Below, in pieces: positions 11,301-64,000 of a stretch of DNA of 64,000 nt. Source of the stretch: Bacteroidota bacterium. GTDB taxonomy: Bacteria; Bacteroidota; Bacteroidia; Chitinophagales; Saprospiraceae. The position numbers were made by a program, and so were the translations under genes. Position 1 is the first letter of the stretch. Each line of letters begins with the position of its first letter. Under the pieces are notes generated by a model. That model saw only the letters and a list, made by a program, of their open reading frames with translations, had not been told where the DNA came from and did not search any database. The DNA lies in NCBI GenBank assembly GCA_003045895.1, contig PZPC01000002.1, positions 62,001-126,000 on the forward strand. The letters are read 5' to 3'.

Positions 11301-12983
11301 ATGGATATAGGAATAGGACTAGGAATTGGTTTGGTGGTGGGTTTAATCGTTGGGTTTGTCGCCATGATAATGCGTAACAAAGGCGTTATCAGTGCCAAAC
11401 TTGAAGAGATCAACGCCCGCTCCGACCAGGAAATCAAAGAAGCTCGCCTGACGGCCAAACGACTCGTTGACGAAGCAGAAACCAAGGCGGAGAAAATTGA
11501 AGCGACCGCAGAACTGAGGAACGAAAAAATCAAGCAACGCAAAGTTCAGGAAGCCAAGGAGAAGTTCAACCGTTACCGCGCCGAATTTGAAAAATTCAAA
11601 GCCGAAGAGCTGATCGAGCTCAAGGAGCGCGAAATGGAGATGAAGTCGCTGGTAAAAGAATTCGATCAGAAGAAAGAAACTTTTACCGACCGCGAAAAGC
11701 AACTGGAACAACAGCGCAGTGACATCGAAGCACGCGCCAGTGAAGTCGAATCCGTCCGGGAAAACCTGGAAAAGCAACTCAAAATCGTTGGCAAGAAGAA
11801 GGAAGAACTGGAAAATGCCAGCGCCCGCCACATCCAGGAACTGGAAAAGGTAGCCAACCTTTCGCAAGCCGACGCCAAAGAGCAACTGCTCGAAGCGGTG
11901 AAAGCCAAAGCCGAGAACGACGCCATGGCCATCATCAAAACGTCGCTCGAAGAAGCCAAAGCGACGGCCGCTAAAGACGCCAAGAAGATCGTGATCCAAA
12001 CCATCCAGCGGATGTGTGCGGAATACACCATCGAGAATACGGTTTCGGTGTTCAACCTGGACAGCGACGACCTCAAGGGCCAGATCATTGGCCGCGAAGG
12101 CCGCAATATCCGCGCCCTGGAAGCAGCTACCGGTGCCGAAATTATTGTCGATGATACGCCCGAAGCCATCGTTATTTCCAGCTTCGACCCCATCCGCCGG
12201 GAAGTTTGCCGCTTGTCGCTCAAGCGACTCGTTGCCGACGGCCGTATCCACCCCGCTCGTATTGAGGAAGTGGTCGCGAAGGTGCGCAAGCAGATCGACG
12301 AACAAATTCGCGAAATTGGCGAACGCACGGTCATCGACCTCGACATCCACGGCCTCGATCCTTACCTCGTCAAGATGGTGGGCCGCATGCGCTTCCGTTC
12401 TTCTTACGGACAGAACCTGTTGAAGCACTCGATCGAAACGGCCAACCTCTGTGCGACCATGGCCGCCGAGCTCGGCCTGAACGCCAAGCAGGTGAAAATG
12501 GCCAAGCGCGCCGGACTGTTACACGATATTGGCAAGGTTGCCGAAGAACAAAGCGAACTGTCGCACGCATTGCTGGGCATGGAAATTTGTGAAAAATACA
12601 AAGAACATCCAGCCGTCATCAATGCCGTAGGTGCCCACCACGATGAGATCGAGATGAGCAATATCCTCTCGCCGATCATCCAGGCCTGTGATGCGATCTC
12701 CGGCGCCCGCCCCGGCGCCCGGCGCGAGATCATGGAAAGCTACCTCAAGCGGATCACCGAACTCGAAGACCTCGCTATGGCCCACGAAGGGGTACACAAA
12801 GCCTTCGCCATGCAGGCGGGCCGCGAGCTCCGGGTGATTGTCGAAGCCGAAAAAGTGACCGACCAACACGCCGACGATCTGTCCTTCCTGATCTCCCAAA
12901 AGATCCAGGATGAAATGCAATACCCTGGCCAGATCAAGGTGACGGTTATTCGCGAAAAGCGAGCCGTTTCCTACGCACGCTAA
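11301..12983 (+). CDS. rny: ribonuclease Y
   Basis: Membrane-anchored endoribonuclease that initiates mRNA decay. It has 560 residues. An N-terminal Gly-rich membrane segment (residues 3-25) is followed by a long charged coiled coil to about 215, a KH domain near 256-300 ([26 protein letters not shown] in two parts) and an HD domain with LLHDIGK near 405-411. The C-terminus has the conserved [11 protein letters not shown]. It ends just before a strong intrinsic terminator. Confidence 0.96.
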
Positions 12984-38205: not shown

Positions 38206-39144
38206 ATGAACAATGCATTAGTAAGGGTCTTTGCACCTGCTACGGTAGCTAATGTCGCCGTAGGTTTCGACATTTTGGGTTTTGCCATCAATGGTCCGGG
38301 AGATGAAGTGGTCGTAAGAAGATGCGCCACGCCTGGTTTGCGGATAACCCAAATAACCGGAACCGGGTTGAAACAGCTCCCGCTGGAGGCGGAAAAAAAC
38401 ACCGCTGGTTTTTCCGCTTTGCGCTTACTCGAGCACCTGAAAGCAACCAGCTTGGGTATTGAAATGGAAATCCATAAAAAAATGCCTTTCGGTAGTGGGC
38501 TGGGGTCAAGTGCGGCTAGTGCAGCGGCCGGCGTATTTGCCGTCAATGAATTATTGGGACAGCCATTATCCAAGGTCGAGCTATTGCCCTTTGCCGTAGC
38601 CGGCGAACAAATTGCCGATGGCGCTTACCATGCGGATAATGTAGGTCCGTCCTTACTCGGTGGAATTACGTTCATTCGCGACAATGCCACCCTGGATGTC
38701 CATCAGCTCCCCGTCCCTGCTGAATTATTCGCGGCGGTCGTGTATCCTTTTGTCGAAATCCTCACGAAGGATGCCCGGGAGGTCTTGAGCAAACAAACCA
38801 GCCTGGCGCAGTGCATTCAGCAGACCGGCAACCTCGGTGCTTTATTGATTGGCTTTTACGAAAATGATTACGAATTGATCCGTCGATCTTTAACCGATGT
38901 TATTATTGAACCGCAGCGGGCCCGGCTTATTCCAAATTTCTTGGAAGTAAAAAACAGTGCCCTTCGGGCTGGGGCATTGGGTTCGAGTATTTCGGGAGCT
39001 GGCCCGAGTGTTTTTGCGCTTTGCCGCAGCCGGGCTACTGCCCAACAAGCGGCCCAGGCCATGCAAGCTGCTTTCACCGCTGTGGACATTCAAAGCGAGG
39101 CCTTTGTTTCTGCCATCAATACCGATGGTGCTGTTCGACTTTAA
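38206..39144 (+). CDS. thrB: homoserine kinase
   Basis: Phosphorylates homoserine to O-phosphohomoserine. 312 residues, GHMP kinase fold. ATVANVAVGFDILGFAI at the N-terminus, the ATP loop PFGSGLGSSAASAAAG near 91-106, and GSSISGAGPSVFAL in the C-terminal domain. It lies 55 bp after thrA and 31 bp before thrC. Confidence 0.96.
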   Translation: MNNALVRVFAPATVANVAVGFDILGFAINGPGDEVVVRRCATPGLRITQITGTGLKQLPLEAEKNTAGFSALRLLEHLKATSLGIEMEIHKKMPFGSGLGSSAASAAAGVFAVNELLGQPLSKVELLPFAVAGEQIADGAYHADNVGPSLLGGITFIRDNATLDVHQLPVPAELFAAVVYPFVEILTKDAREVLSKQTSLAQCIQQTGNLGALLIGFYENDYELIRRSLTDVIIEPQRARLIPNFLEVKNSALRAGALGSSISGAGPSVFALCRSRATAQQAAQAMQAAFTAVDIQSEAFVSAINTDGAVRL

Positions 39145-40562: not shown

Positions 40563-40584
40563 CAATGTTCCACGTGGAACATTG
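40563..40584. other. parS: parS centromere site 1 (ParB binding)
   Basis: The 16-bp palindrome TGTTCCACGTGGAACA at 40566-40581 matches the bacterial parS consensus TGTTNCACGTGNAACA at every position. It is the core of a perfect 22-bp palindrome. ParB binds such sites near the origin, spreads with CTP and recruits ParA and SMC. It lies 53 bp after the thrC stop codon, and 54 bp separate it from the second core. Confidence 0.88.
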
Positions 40585-40623
40585 CACAAGCGCCACCTTT
40601 GCCCTATACTGCTTAATACCCGT

Positions 40624-40664
40624 ATCCTACTGCAATGTTCCACGTGGAACAATTGCAGTAGGAT
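40624..40664. other. parS: parS centromere site 2, nested in a long inverted repeat
   Basis: A second perfect TGTTCCACGTGGAACA lies at 40636-40651. It is flanked by ATCCTACTGCAA (40624-40635) and TTGCAGTAGGAT (40653-40664), which are complementary, giving 20-bp arms with one unpaired A at 40652. As RNA this would fold into a very stable hairpin that could also end the thrABC transcript, although only GGTTTGTTTACC follows. It lies 39 bp before the aminopeptidase ATG. Confidence 0.88.
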
Positions 40665-40703
40665 GGTTTGTTTACCTTTACTTTTCTACTAAAAAAAACC
40701 TTC

Positions 40704-43040
40704 ATGAGTATTAGAATACTACTATCTACCTGCCTTTTCATCCTCCTGGGCAATGCTGTTTTTGCCCAGGTTGAAGACGACAAGCAAGACAAATTCCGAC
40801 AACTCTACCAGGAATTTGCCACCCCTAATGTGTACCGTACTGCTGCTGGTGCTCCCGGCCACCAGTACTGGCAACAACAGGCCGATTACCAAATCAGCAT
40901 TCGGCTCGAGGATGAGACCCAACGGATTTATGGTGAAGAGACCATTACCTACCACAACAACTCGCCCAATCCACTCAGCTACCTCTGGTTGCAACTGGAC
41001 CAAAACATGCGCGCCAAGGAGTCGGACACGTATAAAATAGCGACCAATTCCATTGGCGAACGCATGACCATGAAACAGATTTCTGATCTCGAACCCAGCT
41101 TTGATGGCGGATTCAAATTGGAATACGTTAAGGATGGCGCCAACAAAGACCTTCCCTACACCGTGGTAAAAACCATGATGCGTATTAATTTACCGCAAGC
41201 TTTAGCTCCGGGTGCAACTACCCAACTGAAGATAAAGTGGTGGTACAACATCAACGACCGCATGATTATGGGCGGACGGTCAGGATACGAATACTTTGAA
41301 GAAGAGGACAACTACCTGTATACCATCGCCCAATTCTTCCCCCGCATGGCAGTATACAGCGACAACGAAGGCTGGCAAAACAAGCAGTTTTTGGGCGAAG
41401 GCGAATTCACCCTTCCCTTCGGCAACTACGACGTGAAGCTTACCGTGCCCGCCGACCATAAAGTTTCTGCCACCGGCGTATTGCAAAATGCAAAAGAAGT
41501 CCTCACCAAGGACGAACAAAGCCGGTTTGCTGAAGCTAAAAAAGAACGGCAGACCCCCGTCGTTATCGTGACCGAAGCAGAAGCTATTGCCAACGAAAAG
41601 GAAAAGGCGACAACTACTAGCACCTGGCACTTCAAAGCCGAAAACGTTCGGGACTTTGCTTTTGCCTCTTCGCGCAAATTCATCTGGGATGCCATGGGGG
41701 TTGACCAGGAAGATGGCTCGGTGGTTATGGCTATGTCCATGTACCCCAAAGAAGGAAATCCATTATGGGGACAATATTCTACCAAAGTCATTGCCCACAC
41801 CTTGAAGTGGTACAGCCACTATACCTTTCCGTATCCCTATCCCGTGGCCTGGTCTATTCATACCGATCGCATTGGCATGGAATACCCCATGATCTGTTTT
41901 AATGGAGGTCGGCCGGAAAAAGACGGCACCTATTCCGAACGCACCAGAAATGGTATGATCAGTGTGATCGTTCACGAAGTAGGCCACAACTACTTCCCCA
42001 TGATCGTCAACTCCGACGAGCGCCAGTGGACCTGGATGGACGAAGGTCTGAACTCCTTCCTCCAATACCTAACCGAACAGGAATGGGAACGGGACTATCC
42101 CAGCCGCCGGGGGCCAGCTGCTAATATCGTTCCTTACATGAGCGGCGATAAAGCGGGCATGGTGCCGATCATGTCCAATTCAGAATCACTCCTACAGTTT
42201 GGCAACAACGCCTACGGCAAACCAGCTACCGCACTCAACATCCTGCGCGAAACTGTCATGGGCCGGGAGTTGTTCGATTACGCATTTAAGGAGTATGCCC
42301 GCCGTTGGGAATTCAAACACCCCACACCAGAAGACTTCTTCCGTACCATGGAAGACGCTTCGGCCGTTGACCTCGACTGGTTCTGGTGGGGTTGGTTCTT
42401 TACCACCGACCACGTAGATATTGCCCTCACTGATGTGAAGTGGTACCAACTGAGCACGAAAAACCCGGAAACAGAAAATGCCCTGACCCGCAAGCAACAG
42501 GAAGAAAACCCGCGTTACATTGGCAGCATTCGCAACGAAAAAAGCATTGCCAAAACGCAGGACGAAATCGATCCTACCCTCCAGGATTTCTATTCTACCT
42601 ACGATCCGTTGCAGGTGAATGTACTGGACCAAAAAGACTACACCGCCTACGTAGCTTCTCTTTCAGCAGATGAGAAGGCCGTACTGGACGCTGGCAAAAA
42701 TTACTACGAGTTGAGCTTTGCCAATGAGGGTGGCCTGGTCATGCCTATCATTGTCCAACTTCGCTTTGCCGACGGTAGCTCCGAAGACCATTACATTCCT
42801 GCCGAAATCTGGCAGAAGAACGGCAAAGATATAACTAAAGTATTAGTTACCAACAAAGAGGTCACCAATATCATTCTCGACCCCTACCTGGAAACCGCCG
42901 ATACAGATCGCGCCAACAACTACTTCCCGGCACAACCACAAATGAACCGGTTTGAAATGTACCGCCGCAATGCACGCGGTGAAAGTGAAAACCCCATGCA
43001 ACGTGCCCTTCGGGCAAAGGAAGTACAAGGTTCGAACTAG
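40704..43040 (+). CDS. M1 family zinc metallopeptidase, secreted
   Basis: 778 residues from the ATG at 40704 (MSIRILLSTCLFILLGNAVF); an in-frame TTG at 40668 overlaps nothing useful and is rejected. Signal peptide to about residue 23 (VFAQ). The N-terminal beta-sandwich typical of M1 is followed by the catalytic motif HEVGHNYFP (about 423-431) and, 18 residues later, the third zinc ligand in WMDEGLNSF. Only about 300 residues follow, without a sorting domain. It probably trims peptides in the periplasm or outside the cell. A good terminator follows. Confidence 0.92.
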   Translation: MSIRILLSTCLFILLGNAVFAQVEDDKQDKFRQLYQEFATPNVYRTAAGAPGHQYWQQQADYQISIRLEDETQRIYGEETITYHNNSPNPLSYLWLQLDQNMRAKESDTYKIATNSIGERMTMKQISDLEPSFDGGFKLEYVKDGANKDLPYTVVKTMMRINLPQALAPGATTQLKIKWWYNINDRMIMGGRSGYEYFEEEDNYLYTIAQFFPRMAVYSDNEGWQNKQFLGEGEFTLPFGNYDVKLTVPADHKVSATGVLQNAKEVLTKDEQSRFAEAKKERQTPVVIVTEAEAIANEKEKATTTSTWHFKAENVRDFAFASSRKFIWDAMGVDQEDGSVVMAMSMYPKEGNPLWGQYSTKVIAHTLKWYSHYTFPYPYPVAWSIHTDRIGMEYPMICFNGGRPEKDGTYSERTRNGMISVIVHEVGHNYFPMIVNSDERQWTWMDEGLNSFLQYLTEQEWERDYPSRRGPAANIVPYMSGDKAGMVPIMSNSESLLQFGNNAYGKPATALNILRETVMGRELFDYAFKEYARRWEFKHPTPEDFFRTMEDASAVDLDWFWWGWFFTTDHVDIALTDVKWYQLSTKNPETENALTRKQQEENPRYIGSIRNEKSIAKTQDEIDPTLQDFYSTYDPLQVNVLDQKDYTAYVASLSADEKAVLDAGKNYYELSFANEGGLVMPIIVQLRFADGSSEDHYIPAEIWQKNGKDITKVLVTNKEVTNIILDPYLETADTDRANNYFPAQPQMNRFEMYRRNARGESENPMQRALRAKEVQGSN

Positions 43041-45858: not shown

Positions 45859-46071
45859 TTGTGCGTCACAGCCATAAATTGTATCCAGGGCAAAGCGCGC
45901 CATCAGTCGGAAAGCCAATTGGTCAACTTCCTGCGCGTACACAAATCCTTCATCGTTGCAATGGATAAGATCGACTTTATCGAAAACAACCGCATTGTGG
46001 TTGGTAGCAAATATATCCCCATCAGTGTTACTTACCAGGAAGCGTTTTGGGCGCGGGTAAAAGGTAAATAA
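45859..46071 (+). pseudogene. remnant of a LytTR-type response regulator (C-terminal end only)
   Basis: The frame ends with FLRVHKSFIVAMDKIDFIEN, then NRIVVGSKYIPISVTYQEAFWARV, the last two strands of a LytTR DNA-binding domain (compare the usual F(I/L)RVHKS(F/Y)IV). The receiver domain and the first half of LytTR are absent, and the sequence before residue 25 does not look like the family. No histidine kinase is nearby. It is best explained as a decayed gene end. Confidence 0.6.
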
Positions 46072-46084
46072 CCCACTAAAAGGT

Positions 46085-46112
46085 GTATTTCTCGGTTACA
46101 ACCGAGAAATAC
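46085..46112. repeat. inverted repeat A upstream of the DUF4143 ATPase
   Basis: GTATTTCTCGGTT (46085-46097), AC, AACCGAGAAATAC (46100-46112): perfect 13-bp arms with a 2-bp spacer. Its inner 11 bp are shared with repeat B. Confidence 0.8.
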
Positions 46113-46155
46113 ATACATATTTCTCGGTTAAAACCGAGAAATATGTATGTATTTC
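46106..46155. repeat. inverted repeat B, 24-bp arms, upstream of the DUF4143 ATPase
   Basis: Arms 46106-46129 and 46132-46155 are perfect complements over 24 bp around AA. The inner part, ATTTCTCGGTT/AACCGAGAAAT, repeats that of repeat A, and the outer part is an alternating ATACATAC/GTATGTAT tract. It overlaps repeat A by 7 bp, so only one of the two hairpins can form fully at a time. It ends 14 bp before the ATPase ATG and so covers the expected promoter and leader. Confidence 0.85.
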
Positions 46156-46169
46156 ACTAAATTAGCCGT

Positions 46170-47300
46170 ATGTATATAGCAAGAGAATTATTTCCACTGA
46201 TCAAAAAACGGTTGTCGCCAGGCAAAGCAGTTCTCATTTTAGGTCCTCGCCAAGTGGGAAAATCAACCTTAATGCAAGAAATTGCTAAGCATACGGATTG
46301 GAAAATTAAACACTTTGATTGTGATGATGCGGTTGTTAGAGCGCGGTTGGCCATACAAACGCTTCCCAATTTACAAAATATGGTAGGCGATGCCGACCTT
46401 ATTTTGATCGACGAAGCACAACGCGTAAAAAATATTGGGCTTACCTTAAAAATTATCACCGACCAAATAAAAGACATCCGTTTACTGGTGAGTGGTTCAT
46501 CGGCATTAGAATTAGCCAATGAAATTAATGAACCCCTCACTGGTAGAAAATGGGAATACCATTTGCTGCCGATAGCTACCCAGGAAATGGTAAATTTTCA
46601 TGGTGCCTTCGAAGAATCCCGCTACCTGGAGCAACGGCTACTATACGGAATGTATCCAGAGGTAATTACAAATCCGGGTGATGAGTTGGCTATTTTAAAT
46701 CAGCTAGCAAGCAGCTATTTATACAAAGATATTTTCTCTTTTCAAGACCTTCGAAAACCCGAACTATTAGACAAACTACTCAAAGCGTTGGCGCTGCAGG
46801 TAGGTTCAGAAACCTCGTATAATAAACTTGCACAGTTCATTGGTAGCGACATTTCTACCGTTCAACGTTACGTTGACCTGTTGGAAAAGTCCTTCATCAT
46901 TTTTCGGTTACGTGCTTTCAGCCGTAACCTTCGCAATGAACTTAAGCGCAGCCGGAAAATTTACTTCATCGACTGCGGCATACGCAATGCGATCATTGGT
47001 GATTTTCGGCCACTTGCCCAACGCAATGACATTGGCGGATTATGGGAAAATTTCCTCGTGAGCGAACGTCTAAAACTCAACCAATACAACAATTTCTATG
47101 GCCAATCTTATTTTTGGCGAACCACTGCTCAACAAGAAGTAGACTACCTCGAAGACTACGACGGACAATTACATGCTTATGAATTCAAATGGAGTGCGAA
47201 GAAAAAGGCAACCCTTCCGATCACCTTTCGCAAAGCGTACCCCAATAGCAGCTTTACCGCCGTCAGCCCCGAAAACTACCAGAATTTCCTCTGTAAATAA
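46170..47300 (+). CDS. AAA ATPase with C-terminal DUF4143 (AAA_14 family)
   Basis: 376 residues. Walker A GPRQVGKST at 25-33 and Walker B LILIDEAQ near 77-84, sensor-like VSGSSALEL near 111. The C-terminal DUF4143 half holds a winged-helix-like segment (TSYNKLAQFIGSDISTVQRY), then FLVSERL and a nuclease-like ending, EVDYLEDYDGQLHAYEFKWS, which resembles the D-ExK core of PD-(D/E)XK enzymes. The family is widespread and often multicopy in Bacteroidota; its role is not established. AT content is higher than in its neighbours, and the large inverted repeats in front suggest a transferable unit. Confidence 0.88.
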   Translation: MYIARELFPLIKKRLSPGKAVLILGPRQVGKSTLMQEIAKHTDWKIKHFDCDDAVVRARLAIQTLPNLQNMVGDADLILIDEAQRVKNIGLTLKIITDQIKDIRLLVSGSSALELANEINEPLTGRKWEYHLLPIATQEMVNFHGAFEESRYLEQRLLYGMYPEVITNPGDELAILNQLASSYLYKDIFSFQDLRKPELLDKLLKALALQVGSETSYNKLAQFIGSDISTVQRYVDLLEKSFIIFRLRAFSRNLRNELKRSRKIYFIDCGIRNAIIGDFRPLAQRNDIGGLWENFLVSERLKLNQYNNFYGQSYFWRTTAQQEVDYLEDYDGQLHAYEFKWSAKKKATLPITFRKAYPNSSFTAVSPENYQNFLCK

Positions 47301-51343: not shown

Positions 51344-52027
51344 TCAGAACAGCTTCAGGCTCGCGTCAGTTTCTTCTTCGTGCAGTTGGGGGCCGTTGTT
51401 GCGCACCGAGTTCAGCGCCTGGCTTACCCGATAGTACCGCAAGGTACCGTCAGCGGGGGTCTGCAACAGGTCGAGCACTTGCTCCAGGGAGGAATCGGCC
51501 AGCCAGTCGGTCTGCTGTTCTTTTTGCTGCAGCAATACGGGCATGCGATTGTGCAGTGCAGCTATTTCAGCATTCGCATCCGTGGTGATAATGGAGAAGG
51601 TGCGCATATACTGGTCTTCGTTGCGCCAGACATCCCAGATACCCGCCATGATCAGCAGTTCTCCGTTGGGTCGTAATATACGGTAGGGAATTTTTGCCTT
51701 CCCTTCGGCCCGCCACTCGTAAAAGCTATCGGCAATGACCAGGCAGCGGCGTTGCCGGATGGGAATGCGAAAAGAAGGTTTGCTTTCAATCCCTTCCCGT
51801 CGGGCATTGATCAGCTTTGGCCCCGATTCCGTATCTTTCGACCAGTAGGGAACCAGGCCCCACCGCAAGTATTGCAATTGTTCGGGTGCCTCATTCAGGA
51901 TAACCAATCCCGGATGCGTCGGCGCTACGTTGTAATTGGGGGGAATGGGCTGCTCGTCGTCGAGCACGATGTCCAATTGCTGGGCTATTTGCTGCGTTGT
52001 GGTAACTAGTGAGTATCTGCCGCACAT
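51344..52027 (-). CDS. SOS response-associated peptidase (SRAP, YedK/HMCES family)
   Basis: 227 residues starting MCGRYSLVT, so C2 becomes the N-terminal catalytic Cys after Met removal; it forms a thiazolidine crosslink with abasic sites in single-stranded DNA. Other family residues: NVAPTHPG, the catalytic Glu in VIADSFYEWR, and HNRMPVLL with the conserved His. It protects abasic sites at replication forks. The gene starts exactly at the left edge of the candidate oriC. Confidence 0.92.
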   Translation of the reverse strand: MCGRYSLVTTTQQIAQQLDIVLDDEQPIPPNYNVAPTHPGLVILNEAPEQLQYLRWGLVPYWSKDTESGPKLINARREGIESKPSFRIPIRQRRCLVIADSFYEWRAEGKAKIPYRILRPNGELLIMAGIWDVWRNEDQYMRTFSIITTDANAEIAALHNRMPVLLQQKEQQTDWLADSSLEQVLDLLQTPADGTLRYYRVSQALNSVRNNGPQLHEEETDASLKLF

Positions 52028-52652
52028 GAAATAGAAAATTTAAATGAAGGATAAAGAAGTTATCCACAACGCAATGATGTAATCCACCTTTAACTAAGAC
52101 CAAAACCGTCGGGGTAAAACAAAACCGTACACCTGCCCCGAAAAGGTTTTCCACAGTGGCTTTGGTTAGCATTCCCTAAGTACGTAAAAATAAGGGATTT
52201 AGCCAAATGGCTTTTCCACAACCAGCGTTGGTAAGACCGGGGAAAACCGCCATGTTATCAACGGCTACCAACAGCTCCGGACGATCCCGGACGTTCTCAA
52301 CACCACGCACCGCTTTGGGGGTGGATAAACCGATAGGTTATTGACATTCAAACGTCATATTTTAAGATGGCCAAGGAAAAAAGTTGTCCTGTTGGTTATA
52401 TTATAACACCCTGTGAATAAGTTTGCATCTCCTTGGTTTTTAAGCCTTTTCAATGTGAATAGGCTGTTAATAAACACCACTCAATTATTAACAATGAAAT
52501 AACCAAGAAGTAACCTGGAATTTTCTCCACCAAACTAACAGCACTAATAATAAGAGGGCTTTTTTAAAAAATCATTAAAATCTATTAATAGAAGCTATTA
52601 CCGAAACGGCTTTGTCAAAGTATGTTTTTGGTTGGCTTTAAACGACAAACAA
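52028..52652. other. oriC: candidate chromosomal replication origin (oriC)
   Basis: A 625-bp gene-free stretch between divergent SRAP and ctaA genes. DnaA boxes on the plus strand: TTATCCACA 52060-52068 (perfect), TTTTCCACA 52147-52155 and 52212-52220, near matches TTATCAACG 52255-52263 and TTATTGACA 52338-52346. On the minus strand: TTATCCACC 52320-52328, TTATTCACA 52412-52420 (perfect), CTATTCACA 52454-52462, TTATTAACA 52465-52473. An AT-rich block at about 52541-52600 begins with TAATAATAA (52545-52553), like a DnaA-trio, and could be the unwinding element. Two parS sites 12 kb away and scpA 1.1 kb away fit an origin. dnaA itself is not here, which is common in Bacteroidota. Confidence 0.78.
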
Positions 52653-53726
52653 ATGGAAACGACCGCAACGGCTGCTCCTCAACAAGCTTATCACAGCGCA
52701 GTTAAAATATGGCTGGTGATCGGCGTAGTCATGATTATTGGCCAGGTGGTCATTGGCGGGATTACCCGTCTGACCGGATCGGGCTTATCGATCACCAAAT
52801 GGGAAATTGTTACGGGTACGCTCCCCCCCCTGAACGGCATCGAGTGGCACGAAGCCTTCGAATTGTACCAGGCGACACCCCAGTACGCCAAGATCAACGA
52901 AGGAATGTCACTCAGCGAATTCCAATTCATTTACTTCTGGGAGTATTTTCACCGCTTGTGGGCGCGCTTAATGGGATTCGTGTTCATCATCCCCTTTGTG
53001 GTCTTTTGGCGCAAGGGGTGGCTCGACAAGCCGCTGATGCGCCGTTTGGGCATTACCGTGCTCTTGGCAGCTGTTGTGGCGTCATTTGGATGGATCATGG
53101 TGGCCAGTGGGCTGATTGAGCGACCCTGGGTCAACGCCTACAAACTCACCATGCACCTGTCACTCGCTTGCATCCTGTACAGCTACCTGTTGTGGGCGAC
53201 TTTCACCGTTTTTCAACCCCAGCCCAGCCGTTTTCCACATCAGGTGTTGAAAACCTGGGCCAAAGTGATCTCCGTGGTCACCGCCGTACAGATCGTGCTG
53301 GGAGGGATTATGTCAGGTGCCAAGGCTGGGCTTTTTTATCCTACCTGGCCGGATATGAACGGCGCCTTTATCCCGGAGGTCTTGTTGAAAAGTGAGCTAT
53401 GGAATGTGGATAACCTGATCAACTACGACGCCACCCTGTTCTTGCCCGCGCTCATTCATATACTCCATCGGAGCACTGCTTATTTGCTGGCTATCATGGT
53501 TTTATACTTTGTCTGGCGGCTCCTTAAACAAGATATTAACGCCCTTACCAGGCGGGCAGGCTACCTGTTGGTAAGTATGTTGGTAATCCAGGTTTTACTG
53601 GGGATAATTACGGTTGTCAACTGCTTGGGTGCGGTTCCCGTCCTGTGGGGCGTATTGCACCAGGCAGGGGCAATATTCCTTTTATCAGCGGTCTTATTCG
53701 TTGATTATCAGCTGTTGAAAAAATAA
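52653..53726 (+). CDS. ctaA: heme A synthase (COX15/CtaA family)
   Basis: Oxidises heme O to heme A for cytochrome c oxidase; integral membrane protein. 357 residues from the ATG at 52653; an in-frame TTG at 52632 is less likely. Eight membrane helices. The family pattern GGITRLTGSGLSITKWEIVTG follows the first helix, the heme-ligand histidines lie in EYFHRLWARLMGF, TMHLSLA, HILHRSTAYL and VLHQAGAI. Other cytochrome oxidase genes are not in the window. Confidence 0.95.
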   Translation: METTATAAPQQAYHSAVKIWLVIGVVMIIGQVVIGGITRLTGSGLSITKWEIVTGTLPPLNGIEWHEAFELYQATPQYAKINEGMSLSEFQFIYFWEYFHRLWARLMGFVFIIPFVVFWRKGWLDKPLMRRLGITVLLAAVVASFGWIMVASGLIERPWVNAYKLTMHLSLACILYSYLLWATFTVFQPQPSRFPHQVLKTWAKVISVVTAVQIVLGGIMSGAKAGLFYPTWPDMNGAFIPEVLLKSELWNVDNLINYDATLFLPALIHILHRSTAYLLAIMVLYFVWRLLKQDINALTRRAGYLLVSMLVIQVLLGIITVVNCLGAVPVLWGVLHQAGAIFLLSAVLFVDYQLLKK

Positions 53727-53757
53727 CTCACATTTCAATGTGGAAAAGTGTTGGTAA

Positions 53758-54516
53758 CTATTCTTCTTCCTCATTTTGCCCCGCTTCGAGCCAAAAACTG
53801 TTGACTTCCTGACCGCCAATCAGGCGGACCAGCTCCATGTTGAGGAGCTCCAGTAACCCTAAAAACGTTACAATAGCGTGGATGCGGTTCTGGCAACCGC
53901 CGAAGATATCTACAAAGCTGGGGCGCTGCCCCGCATTGACCAGGGTGAGGATGAATTGTTGTTGCTCTTCGATGGTATAATTGAACTGAATAATTTCGTG
54001 TACGGTGGTGCGCTGCTGTGCTGCTTCGAGGCGCTGCATGAGTCCTTCAAAGGTTTTCAACAGTTTGAACAAAGTCACCGATTCCAGTTCGGCATCTACC
54101 AGGGCTTTGGTCGCAATCTCCTGGAGCTCGTCGCTGACGTTCCCCCGGAGGTTGCGCATCGACCGGTTTTCCTCCAACAGGCGCATATCCTCCAGGATGC
54201 TTTTGTAGCGCTTGTATTCCAGCAGGCGCTGGACCAGTTCCTCGCGGGGATCAATGATATTGCCTTCGTCGTCGATGGGTTTGCGGGGAATGAGCATCTT
54301 GGCCTTGATGCGACAGAGGGTAGCTGCCACCAGGACAAATTCGCTGGCCAGGTCGATATCCATTGCTTCCAGGTGCCGGATATAATCCAGGAAATCGTCC
54401 GTCACCTTGGCAATGGGAATATCGTAAATATCGAGCTCATCGCGCTCGATAAAAAACAGCAGAAGGTCGAATGGCCCCTCAAACTGCGGCAGCTTAATGG
54501 TGTAAGTCGTGCTCAT
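53758..54516 (-). CDS. scpA: segregation and condensation protein A
   Basis: Kleisin subunit of the SMC-ScpAB condensin, which compacts and separates new chromosomes from the origin. 252 residues. The N-terminal domain has the signature YTIKLPQFEGPFDLLLFFIE, ELDIYDIPIAKVTDDFLDYI and LVAATLCRIKAKMLIPRK; the C-terminal winged helix is near 210-245. scpB is not adjacent. Position 1.1 kb from the candidate oriC suits its role, although synteny with oriC is not a general rule. Confidence 0.94.
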   Translation of the reverse strand: MSTTYTIKLPQFEGPFDLLLFFIERDELDIYDIPIAKVTDDFLDYIRHLEAMDIDLASEFVLVAATLCRIKAKMLIPRKPIDDEGNIIDPREELVQRLLEYKRYKSILEDMRLLEENRSMRNLRGNVSDELQEIATKALVDAELESVTLFKLLKTFEGLMQRLEAAQQRTTVHEIIQFNYTIEEQQQFILTLVNAGQRPSFVDIFGGCQNRIHAIVTFLGLLELLNMELVRLIGGQEVNSFWLEAGQNEEEE

Positions 54517-61225: not shown

Positions 61226-64000
61226 CTAACAAGTACCCCACCCACCCCCTCCAGGCGTAGCTATCCGGATGCACTCACCGGGCTGTAGGTTCAGGCTGAC
61301 CACCCCTGGAAGTGCTTCCGTAGAGCCATCGGCACGGACAAGGAGTTGTTGCCCGGGCAAGCCAGCTTCCCCTCCTTCCTGGCCGTAGGGGCCACTTTTT
61401 CGGCGCTGGGTCAGGAGCGTGACGTCGAGCGGAACCAGGGCTTCTACCTCTCGCACGAGTCCGTTGCCTCCCGGCCAGCGGCCAGCGCCGCCGGAGTGCG
61501 CGCGCAAGGCAAACTGCCGCAGGCGCACCGGGTACACCCGTTCCAGGTCTTCCGGATCGGTGATCCGGGTGTTGGTCATGTGTTGGTGCACGCCCGAGCG
61601 GCCCGCAAATCCGGGGCCAGCGCCAGCGCCTCCGCCAATGGTTTCGTAGTAACCGAAGGTGGCGTTTCCGAAAAGAAAATTATTCATGGTACCCTGGCTG
61701 GCGGCCGCCAGGCCAAAGGCTTTCAGGAGCGTATCCACCAGGCGCTGACTCACTTCGGTGTTGCCACCCACTACCGCCGGGCAACGGGCGGGCTCGTCCA
61801 CAAAATCGGGATGCAGAAAAGTATTCGGCGGTAAAGCCAACCGAACGCCGCGCAGCAGCCCTTCGTTGAGCGGAATATCGTCGGCACAAATCAGCCGCAA
61901 CACGTAGATGAGGGCGCTGTAGACAATGGACACATTGGCGTTGAAATTGGCGGGATGCACTGGCGACGTGCCCGCAAAATCCAAGGCGAGTTGCTGGCCG
62001 TCGAAAAGGATGCTGACCACGATTTCGTGTCCATCATCCAGGCTTTCACGGGCCAGCAGGGGGCGGTTGGCAAAGGGTTGCAACTGCTGCAGGAGGTTCT
62101 GATGGGCACTTTTCTGCAAAGCTTCCATGTAGTACAAGACGCGTTCCTGCCCGTACTGATCCACCAGTGCCCGGAGGGCTTTTTCGCCGGTATGCAGCGC
62201 GGCCAGCCCCGCCCGCAGGTCGGCCAGGTTTTCGGCCAGCGCACGGGTTGGATAGGGGGCAGCGGTCAGCTGGCGGGTAACGCTTTCCCACTGCGGCACC
62301 CCGCGCCGCACCAACAACTGGGGGGCAAAAACCACCCCCTCTTCGGCCAGACAAGTGGCATCGGGGGGCATCGACCCTGGGCGCTTGCCGCCAATTTCGG
62401 CGTGGTGGGCCCGGTTGATGACGTAGCCGACGCAGGAACCATCAGCCAGAAAAACGCCCTGCAGCAGGGTAATATCCGGCAGGTGGGAGCCGCCGTATTT
62501 GGGATGATTGACCAGGAGGACATCCCCCGGCTCCAGCGGCAGTTTTTCCAGACACAACCGCGCGCACACCCCCAGGCTCCCCAGGTGGACGGGAATATGG
62601 GGGGCATTGACCAGCAGGTTGGCCTGGGGGTCGAGCAGGGCACAGCTGAAATCCAGCCGCTCCTTCACGTTGACACTGAAAGCCGTGCGCTGCAGCTGGG
62701 TCCCCATTTCTTGGGCAACAGCCTGGAAGCGGTTGGTGAACAACTCGAGGGCGATGGCTTCCCCCCAGGACTCCCCGGTTGCACGGGTTGCAGCCGGTGT
62801 GTGGGTCAGCACGGCGTGCCCGTTGGCCCAGATGGCCAGCTGCCAGGCGGGGGGCAGGTAGGCCGTCGCTTGCTGTCCGGCCAGCACCAGCGGGCCGCGG
62901 GCCGCAAATCCCTCCGGCAGCTCTTCCCACAGGCGGATGGTGTGGCCCGGGAGCGCCAGCGCTTGCGGGGCTGGCGGAAAAATGCGGGCCGGATCGTCGG
63001 CCGCCGTAGTCGCGAAAACCTTGACACTTTCCAATTCGATCACCGTTTGCTCGGGCAGGTAGCCAAATTGCGCTGCGTAGGCCGCCAGGAAGGCCTGGGT
63101 AGGATCCATGCCGGGCTGGTAGCGCAATTCCAGGGGGGTGTCCTGGCCCCGGAAGCGCAGGTACAGCAGCACCCGCGCCGGATGGGCGGCTACGGCTTCG
63201 GGCCCCGCCTGGCGCAACTGCGCCTGGGCCTGCCCGAAGAGGGTGGCTACCAGTTCCGGGACGGATAACGCCGGATCGGACAAGGGCCGTAGAACCTGCT
63301 GCTCGGCCAGTTTTTCCAGGGGCGCCTGCCCCATGCCGTAGGCACTGAGCAGCCCCGCATCGCGCGGGAGGATGACCTGGTTGATGCCTAGCAATTCGGC
63401 GATGGCACAAGCGTGCATCCCGCCAGCGCCCCCGAAAGCGAGCAGGGCATAGTCGCGCGGATCAAAGCCCTGGCGAACGGAGATCCGGCGGATGGCGTCG
63501 GCCATCTTTTCGTTGGCAATTTGCTCAAAGCCGCGGAGGAGTTCGGTGTCGGAATAGGTCGTTCCGGTGCGGGCCAGTAGGTCGTGTTGCACCTGTTGCA
63601 GGGCCGCCTGCGCGGCGGGCAGGGACAGGGGCACACTGATGGCATCGGCCGCCAATTTGCCCAGCAATAAATTCACATCGGTAATGGTGAGTGGGCCCCC
63701 AGCGCCGTAGCAGGCGGGCCCCGGGCTGGCGCCCGCGCTGGCGGGACCAACGGTGAGCTTTTCCCCGTCGAAGCCGCAGATGGATCCGCCACCCGCCGCC
63801 ACCGTTTCGATGGCCAGGCTGGGGCTCAAAATTTGGGCGTCGCCCACCTGGCAGAAAAAGCGGAAATCGAATTGTCCGGCATAGCGGGCCGCATCGGTGC
63901 TGGTGCCGCCCATATCCAGGGTGAGGATTTTTTCGAAACCCAGCTGCCGGGCGATCGCTACCGCGCCGACAATGCCGCCCGCCGGGCCACTGAGGAGGCT
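61226..64000 (-). CDS. fused hydantoinase A/B, 5-oxoprolinase-type (partial, N-terminus beyond right edge)
   Basis: The frame is open from the right edge (64000) to the stop at 61226-61228, 924 codons; complete members have about 1,250 residues. The visible part starts SLLSGPAGGIVGAVAIARQL and LTLDMGGTSTDAARYAG, the ATP-binding HyuA motifs, and continues through the HyuA C-terminus. From about window position 62740 downward it is HyuB: FSVNVKERLDFSCALLDPQA, HIPVHLGSLGVCARL, DVLLVNHPKYGGSHLPDITL. It ends TPGGGGWGTC. The enzyme hydrolyses 5-oxoproline or hydantoins with ATP. Very GC-rich. Confidence 0.9.
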   Translation of the reverse strand, partial: SLLSGPAGGIVGAVAIARQLGFEKILTLDMGGTSTDAARYAGQFDFRFFCQVGDAQILSPSLAIETVAAGGGSICGFDGEKLTVGPASAGASPGPACYGAGGPLTITDVNLLLGKLAADAISVPLSLPAAQAALQQVQHDLLARTGTTYSDTELLRGFEQIANEKMADAIRRISVRQGFDPRDYALLAFGGAGGMHACAIAELLGINQVILPRDAGLLSAYGMGQAPLEKLAEQQVLRPLSDPALSVPELVATLFGQAQAQLRQAGPEAVAAHPARVLLYLRFRGQDTPLELRYQPGMDPTQAFLAAYAAQFGYLPEQTVIELESVKVFATTAADDPARIFPPAPQALALPGHTIRLWEELPEGFAARGPLVLAGQQATAYLPPAWQLAIWANGHAVLTHTPAATRATGESWGEAIALELFTNRFQAVAQEMGTQLQRTAFSVNVKERLDFSCALLDPQANLLVNAPHIPVHLGSLGVCARLCLEKLPLEPGDVLLVNHPKYGGSHLPDITLLQGVFLADGSCVGYVINRAHHAEIGGKRPGSMPPDATCLAEEGVVFAPQLLVRRGVPQWESVTRQLTAAPYPTRALAENLADLRAGLAALHTGEKALRALVDQYGQERVLYYMEALQKSAHQNLLQQLQPFANRPLLARESLDDGHEIVVSILFDGQQLALDFAGTSPVHPANFNANVSIVYSALIYVLRLICADDIPLNEGLLRGVRLALPPNTFLHPDFVDEPARCPAVVGGNTEVSQRLVDTLLKAFGLAAASQGTMNNFLFGNATFGYYETIGGGAGAGPGFAGRSGVHQHMTNTRITDPEDLERVYPVRLRQFALRAHSGGAGRWPGGNGLVREVEALVPLDVTLLTQRRKSGPYGQEGGEAGLPGQQLLVRADGSTEALPGVVSLNLQPGECIRIATPGGGGWGTC

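Follow-up and report, generated by a model that had tools for sequence, protein, structure and literature searches.

Where does the chromosome of a Saprospiraceae bacterium begin to replicate when dnaA, the usual signpost, is of no help? Bacteroidota origins lie without this marker, and according to a Prevotella genome paper oriC and dnaA commonly lie far apart in Bacteroidetes (PMC4755523). We analysed a window of 64,000 nucleotides, corresponding to bases 62001-126000 of contig C31 (173,179 bp) in a genome of 5.57 Mb assembled in 161 contigs; positions given below without a contig or genome name are those of this window. A sequence-only reading had proposed that the chromosomal oriC is located at 52028-52652, between an SRAP gene and ctaA and without dnaA. 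This proposal was strongly supported by the boxes, the GC skew, the placement of parS, a conserved unwinding-type module and the corresponding loci of relatives, these signals converging immediately before ctaA. With a box cluster, a skew switch, an AT-rich element and conservation in relatives, the locus has the sequence attributes of an oriC, and we estimate at roughly 93% the probability that a Lewinella-like Saprospiraceae bacterium has its chromosomal origin here, apart from dnaA. A literature search (titles and abstract openings, with few subscription journals) retrieved no paper on this origin; DoriC may hold predictions for some of the species concerned.

The intergenic core of the proposed oriC (52028-52655) extends from the SRAP gene (SOS response associated peptidase; 51344-52027, minus strand; Pfam PF02586, 1.8e-69) to ctaA (COX15-CtaA family, haem A synthase; 52656-53726, plus strand; PF02628, 8.2e-89), both gene identities in the earlier reading being borne out by Pfam. 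The closest named relative according to CtaA was Lewinella cohaerens DSM 23179 (76% identity). This strain is letter-identical, over the 730 bp compared, to G003, a congener of the window genome, and the window genus is therefore taken to be Lewinella-like. The gene immediately 3' of ctaA is scpA (condensin subunit; 53758-54516), as it also is in L. cohaerens. Elsewhere in the window, an ATPase-like gene (46170-47300) with no NCBIfam match at E<=0.001 lies in a low-GC stretch (0.41 at 46001-47000) and was possibly acquired, and the GC content climbs to 0.65 at 62001-64000, higher than in the remaining window.

Using TTWTHCACA as the definition of a strict DnaA box, we recovered four boxes in the core: TTATCCACA at 52060-52068 (+), TTTTCCACA at 52147-52155 (+) and again at 52212-52220 (+), and TTATTCACA at 52412-52420 (-). 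The two perfect boxes and the two further ones were thus found where they had been reported, with the plus-strand boxes on the left and the minus-strand boxes on the right, as described. The count of five additional near matches in the same reading varies with the mismatch threshold; allowing at most one mismatch adds only TTATCCACC at 52320-52328 (-). The boxes at 52147 and 52412 are conserved in every row of the genus alignment, and the one at 52212 is identical in G001 and G002 with one mismatch in G003.

The DnaA-box cluster at this locus exceeds chance. Five sites with at most one mismatch to TTATCCACA occur in 52028-52652, for a simulated mean of 0.17 and with none of 1000 simulations reaching five, and where the SRAP-ctaA gap has four strict boxes, sequences simulated for the region with a first-order Markov model average 0.078 (0/1000 reaching four). 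Over the whole 173-kb contig there are 17 strict boxes, seven of which are grouped within 1.7 kb at the ctaA locus. Beyond the fetched stretches the genome was scanned for TTATNCACA only, so that a cluster made solely of TTTTCCACA could have escaped. TTATNCACA was not enriched genome-wide (58+43=101 sites versus 55+57=112 for the reversed-pattern control); it is therefore the clustering itself that constitutes the signal.

The cumulative GC skew, calculated on the whole 173-kb contig (one of the 161 of the assembly), reaches its minimum at contig position 113379, i.e., 51379 of the window, 0.65 kb outside the SRAP-ctaA gap. G002 is the sole single-contig genome in the genus (7,507,556 bp), and we sampled it in 20 stretches of 20 kb (5.3%). 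The skew was negative in all eight stretches between 0 and 2.34 Mb and in those at 6.6 and 7.2 Mb, and positive in all nine between 2.36 and 6.0 Mb, with one intermediate stretch spanning the switch (+0.005). The only negative-to-positive switch among the 20 sampled stretches adjoins ctaA; within the 60 kb around this gene (2347714-2348757), the minimum is at 2349196. The skew check suggested by the sequence-only reading, performed on the window's own contig and on this congener, placed the minimum or the switch near the locus and left the oriC reading standing.

Other genomes of the family gave a mixed picture. G187 and G190 are presumably Saprospira, G060 and G062 presumably Aureispira, and G078 presumably Haliscomenobacter. 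The Saprospira-like and Aureispira-like genomes carry dense clusters of 9 to 13 boxes upstream of ctaA. The minimum of the 20-kb stretch fell within the 12-box cluster before ctaA in G190 (1958578; genome-wide samples irregular), within the 13-box cluster in G187 (2052643) and, in G060 (6094494), 0.15 kb from the end box of an 11-box cluster. In G062 the genome-wide sign pattern was clear, and the minimum, at about 359.9 kb where a 7-kb gap in the sampling begins or ends, was 18.5 kb from the 9-box cluster (378397-379086); the sampled skew of G078 showed no clear switch. Among the 47 named loci with both flanks, the left skew was lower than the right one in 40 and not lower in 7, the left flank was negative and the right one positive in only 24, and the minimum lay within -2000 to +2500 of the ctaA start in only 21.

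Clusters of parS have been used together with the skew to locate origins, and dnaA as a marker is advised with caution, in the part of the parS literature consulted here (PMC10197239). At up to one mismatch, the genome contains only two sites for the parS palindrome TGTTCCACGTGGAACA, at 40566-40581 and 40636-40651, both 11.4 kb from the proposed oriC. Such sites were located 5.5-30.5 kb from ctaA in 9/9 genomes searched, the sole parS elsewhere in these nine being a single-mismatch site in G190 at 3874340, and 25 of 80 named loci contain parS inside the DNA fetched. In our own reading, the window sites (40566-40651) sit between threonine-synthase-like and peptidase-like genes; NCBIfam gave a homoserine kinase at 38206-39141 and a weak aminopeptidase N match at 40668-43037, and homoserine-kinase-like and peptidase-like ORFs were likewise seen by eye near parS in G190. 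As for dnaA, it maps to another contig than ctaA (C28:3771-4256), the proposed oriC thus being without an adjacent dnaA, as had been claimed. An origin at dnaA itself was rejected, the first 20 kb of this 25.5-kb contig being devoid of strict boxes.

Between the box array and ctaA, we recovered a module of the unwinding type. Published searches for the basal unwinding system (BUS) ask for a box with at most two mismatches, a spacer of up to 16 bp peaking at 10-13, and at least three NAN triplets (PMC8287927). In the window, the module starts with the weak box TTCTCCACC (52523-52531, +; two mismatches), followed after a 13-nt spacer by the DnaA-trio-like triplets TAA TAA TAA GAG (52545-52556, +); the trio-like TAATAATAA that had been noticed at the start of the AT-rich block is indeed found at 52545. 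The proposed unwinding element (52554-52600) is 78.7% AT compared with 47.4% for the window, an AT content which is in itself not rare (376 of the 63,954 47-bp windows of the stretch reach 78.7%). At the weak box, TTTTCTCCACC is conserved in every row of the genus alignment, and four genomes of the genus show hardly any variation in the succession of TTTTCTCCACC, ACTAACAGC and CTAATAATAA, then A/T-rich DNA.

The triplets were also sought across a wider set of loci. A looser triplet pattern, composed post hoc after 24 upstream sequences had been viewed and whose counts are therefore descriptive, was present within 700 bp upstream of ctaA on the ctaA strand in 43/77 loci, counting the window, and on the opposite strand in 6/77, versus 94/1680 and 120/1680 control windows; a few matches fall off the module (e.g., L069 at -619, L068 at -687 and L082 at -225). 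The strict pattern (TAA|TAG)x3 was found on the plus strand in 13/77 loci and on the minus strand in 4/77, versus 29/2006 control windows. By eye, most triplet matches were preceded by a TCCACA-like box, often by a second one, and in the aligned relatives the A+T content was 0.92-0.93 at 18-37 bp past the anchor.

How far does the association between ctaA and the boxes extend? The gene is present in 162/180 family genomes of at least 97% completeness, and upstream of ctaA SRAP was matched in 32/81 loci and dtd in 37/81 (many matches being truncated). The comparison with relatives, which the sequence-only reading had called for, recovered the upstream cluster: within 1000 bp before ctaA, 65 of 74 named loci have at least one strict box, 53 at least two and 37 at least three, the nine others having none in this interval. 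Across 80 named loci, the box density was 3.38/kb in the last 500 bp before ctaA and 1.27 in the preceding 500 bp, 3.23/kb in the third quarter of ctaA, 5.37/kb in the 150 bp starting 40 bp before the end of the ctaA match, and 0.04-0.12/kb farther out (more than 1 kb upstream or 0.5 kb downstream); the control with the reversed pattern stayed at 0.00-0.47/kb throughout, with its peak (0.47) in the last 500 bp before ctaA. We also searched 23 genomes from other families of the order (two without a match, one with a fragment), and the 20 ctaA loci used had no cluster of strict boxes. In two of these genomes, G041 and G048, the skew has a local minimum close to where ctaA starts (-422 and -166, respectively) without a box cluster, and in G048 (locus L244) parS is 6.1 kb away. 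From the skew minimum and parS of G048, the linkage between ctaA and the origin could predate the family, and the G048 origin may use diverged boxes.

The limits first assigned to the locus (52028-52652) turned out to be too narrow: the boxes they enclose are real, and further boxes run on to 53747. Two boxes lie within ctaA, site 1 at 53231-53239 (+) and site 2 at 53405-53413 (-), and a third at 53739-53747 (-) between ctaA and scpA. In 81 ctaA genes, window included, we counted 91 strict boxes versus 11.7 +/- 3.05 after synonymous codons had been shuffled within each gene, keeping protein and codon use (200 shuffles, maximum 20 boxes; the 81 genes are treated without correction for relatedness). 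Site 1 carries a box in 30/81 genes (shuffle mean 1.98, maximum 7) and site 2 in 28/81 (mean 2.78, maximum 7), both being occupied in 17/81 and site 1 lacking in 51/81. On a quick CtaA tree, in which the site columns were kept, presence at site 1 requires at least 10 changes and presence at site 2 at least 16. Downstream, a strict box occurs at -12 to +70 of the ctaA stop in 29/79 named loci, 21 of which have at least two, versus 88/14,058 control windows. Since scpA was matched in only 3/81 loci, window included, these 3' boxes appear independent of the next gene. We read the in-gene and 3' boxes as the product of DNA-level selection in the relatives.

This second array is, judging from the genomes compared, a feature of only part of the Saprospiraceae. 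In the Saprospira-like and Aureispira-like genomes the ctaA gene contains no strict box, and G078 has two adjacent boxes in ctaA plus one behind. Together with the lack of site 1 in 51/81 genes, the empty ctaA of the former lineages indicates that in-gene boxes are not essential to the origin of the family.

Could the boxes inside and behind ctaA be simple by-products of the conservation of a protein or of a terminator, rather than DnaA sites? Site 2 lies in a partly conserved protein motif, W-[TN]-V-[ED]-N-F, its boxes all being in one frame (28/28), and the 3' box of the window overlaps a short inverted repeat (CACATT/AATGTG). Protein-preserving shuffles nevertheless produced 2.78 boxes at site 2 where 28 were observed (relatedness uncorrected), and the protein stretch at site 1 is variable, its commonest residues occurring in at most 27/81 rows, and the boxes there fall in two reading frames (18 and 15 boxes, three genes having both), so that protein conservation hardly explains site 1. 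As for a terminator, 19 of the 21 loci that have at least two 3' boxes contain a pair with starts 12 bp apart, the minus strand carries 49/54 of these boxes, and most of the 3' sequences inspected by eye do not have the inverted repeat of the window. We thus regard the by-product explanation as unlikely.

Two other explanations concern the locus as a whole. The boxes could belong to a DnaA-regulated promoter or to a datA-like titration site, controlling ctaA or the supply of DnaA rather than initiation. The genome does possess such a site: on contig C89, which has no parS, four strict boxes lie within about 100 bp (L012 10032-10132) before ribonucleotide reductase genes, namely a beta-subunit-like ORF at L012:10557 (below the NCBIfam curated cut-offs) and an alpha subunit at 11845 (TIGR02506, above cut-off). 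We explain this second cluster as the ribonucleotide reductase promoter region, probably a promoter controlled by DnaA; the box pairs of contigs C110 and C136 were discarded, since over the first 20 kb of either contig no 1.7-kb interval has more than two strict boxes. A promoter or titration site corresponds to a box cluster without origin features, and here these features are present; it would leave unexplained the skew switch, the proximity of parS in 9/9 genomes and the module of box, triplets and AT-rich DNA, and we give it hardly any credence. Alternatively, the true origin could be elsewhere within tens of kb, for instance at parS, the ctaA cluster being a secondary DnaA site. The distance of 11.4 kb to parS in the window and that of 18.5 kb to the skew minimum in G062 would agree with this, as would the second cluster of 10 boxes found among parS, 5.4 kb from ctaA, in G190 and G187. 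The contig of the window, however, has no other cluster, with 7 of its 17 strict boxes in 173 kb at ctaA, and the skew reaches its minimum 0.65 kb from the cluster in this contig and inside the cluster before ctaA in G190 and G187; a displaced origin appears very improbable to us. The second cluster, with 10 strict boxes interleaved with parS in each genome (L165 4229-4618 in G190 and L242 6974-7370 in G187), is an unusual mixture of segregation and initiation sites.

With an origin before ctaA as the preferred reading, DnaA binding, unwinding and initiation at the locus, which we infer from these sequence features, could proceed as follows. DnaA would bind the box array at 52060-52420 and extend, by way of the weak box (52523), to the TAA triplets that start at 52545; the AT-rich stretch 52554-52600, directly before ctaA, would then open, and the helicase would be loaded there, with two forks departing. 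The second array (53231, 53405 and 53739) would bind DnaA as a second arm, ctaA being looped out as in bipartite origins. That this array forms the second arm of the same complex seems to us its most likely role, with about an even chance of being correct; alternatively, the boxes of ctaA may tune or titrate the supply of DnaA beside the origin. Extended to Lewinella, Neolewinella and several other Saprospiraceae lineages, the same idea would make ctaA a part of the origin, the in-gene and 3' boxes (often a 12-bp-spaced pair) acting as a second sub-origin which loops to the upstream array, in a bipartite origin formed around a gene other than dnaA, with a variable protein stretch accommodating a box in either of two frames. 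We advance this broader proposal tentatively, its chances being slightly below even.

In this phylum, nothing is unusual about an oriC that lacks dnaA; what would be new is the array, apparently selected at the DNA level, inside and behind ctaA. Its in-gene boxes indicate that selection for initiator binding may be imposed on a protein-coding gene at the DNA level, and they prompt one to ask if bipartite origins can be built around a gene other than dnaA. Since the family has cultivated members, the origin is directly testable, and a known oriC would aid the building of vectors and the estimation of growth rates from metagenomes.

Several known systems resemble this locus, as far as they are described in the portions of the literature consulted. 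The parS palindrome of the window is the same 16-bp element as the parS centromere sites of PMC10197239, likewise clustered near the origin, and its sequence (TGTTCCACGTGGAACA) has two changes from the consensus given there, which is nothing unusual. The predicted oriC of Prevotella intermedia (PMC4755523) shares a box cluster at a skew transition with dnaA elsewhere; unlike in its available description, the neighbour here is ctaA, the boxes run through and behind this gene, and parS and the unwinding-type module share the same address in relatives. With the basal unwinding system of Bacillus subtilis and others, as outlined in the accessible part of PMC8287927, the candidate module of the window shares a box with at most two mismatches, the 13-nt spacer, four NAN triplets and the neighbouring AT-rich DNA. 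It differs by its weak box and by its triplets: the window has 5'-TAA-3', relatives often have 5'-GAT-3', and the commonest in that source is 3'-GAT-5'. Finally, in Helicobacter pylori and B. subtilis, dnaA lies between two arrays and is looped out, according to the sections consulted of PMC5043019. The locus studied here likewise has two box arrays, the upstream one and that formed by 53231, 53405 and 53739, which are separated by a gene, and a proposed unwinding element adjoins one of them; behind ctaA, the window has one strict box where relatives often have two. Unlike in these bipartite origins, the gene between the arrays is ctaA instead of dnaA, and some of the boxes lie within its coding sequence.
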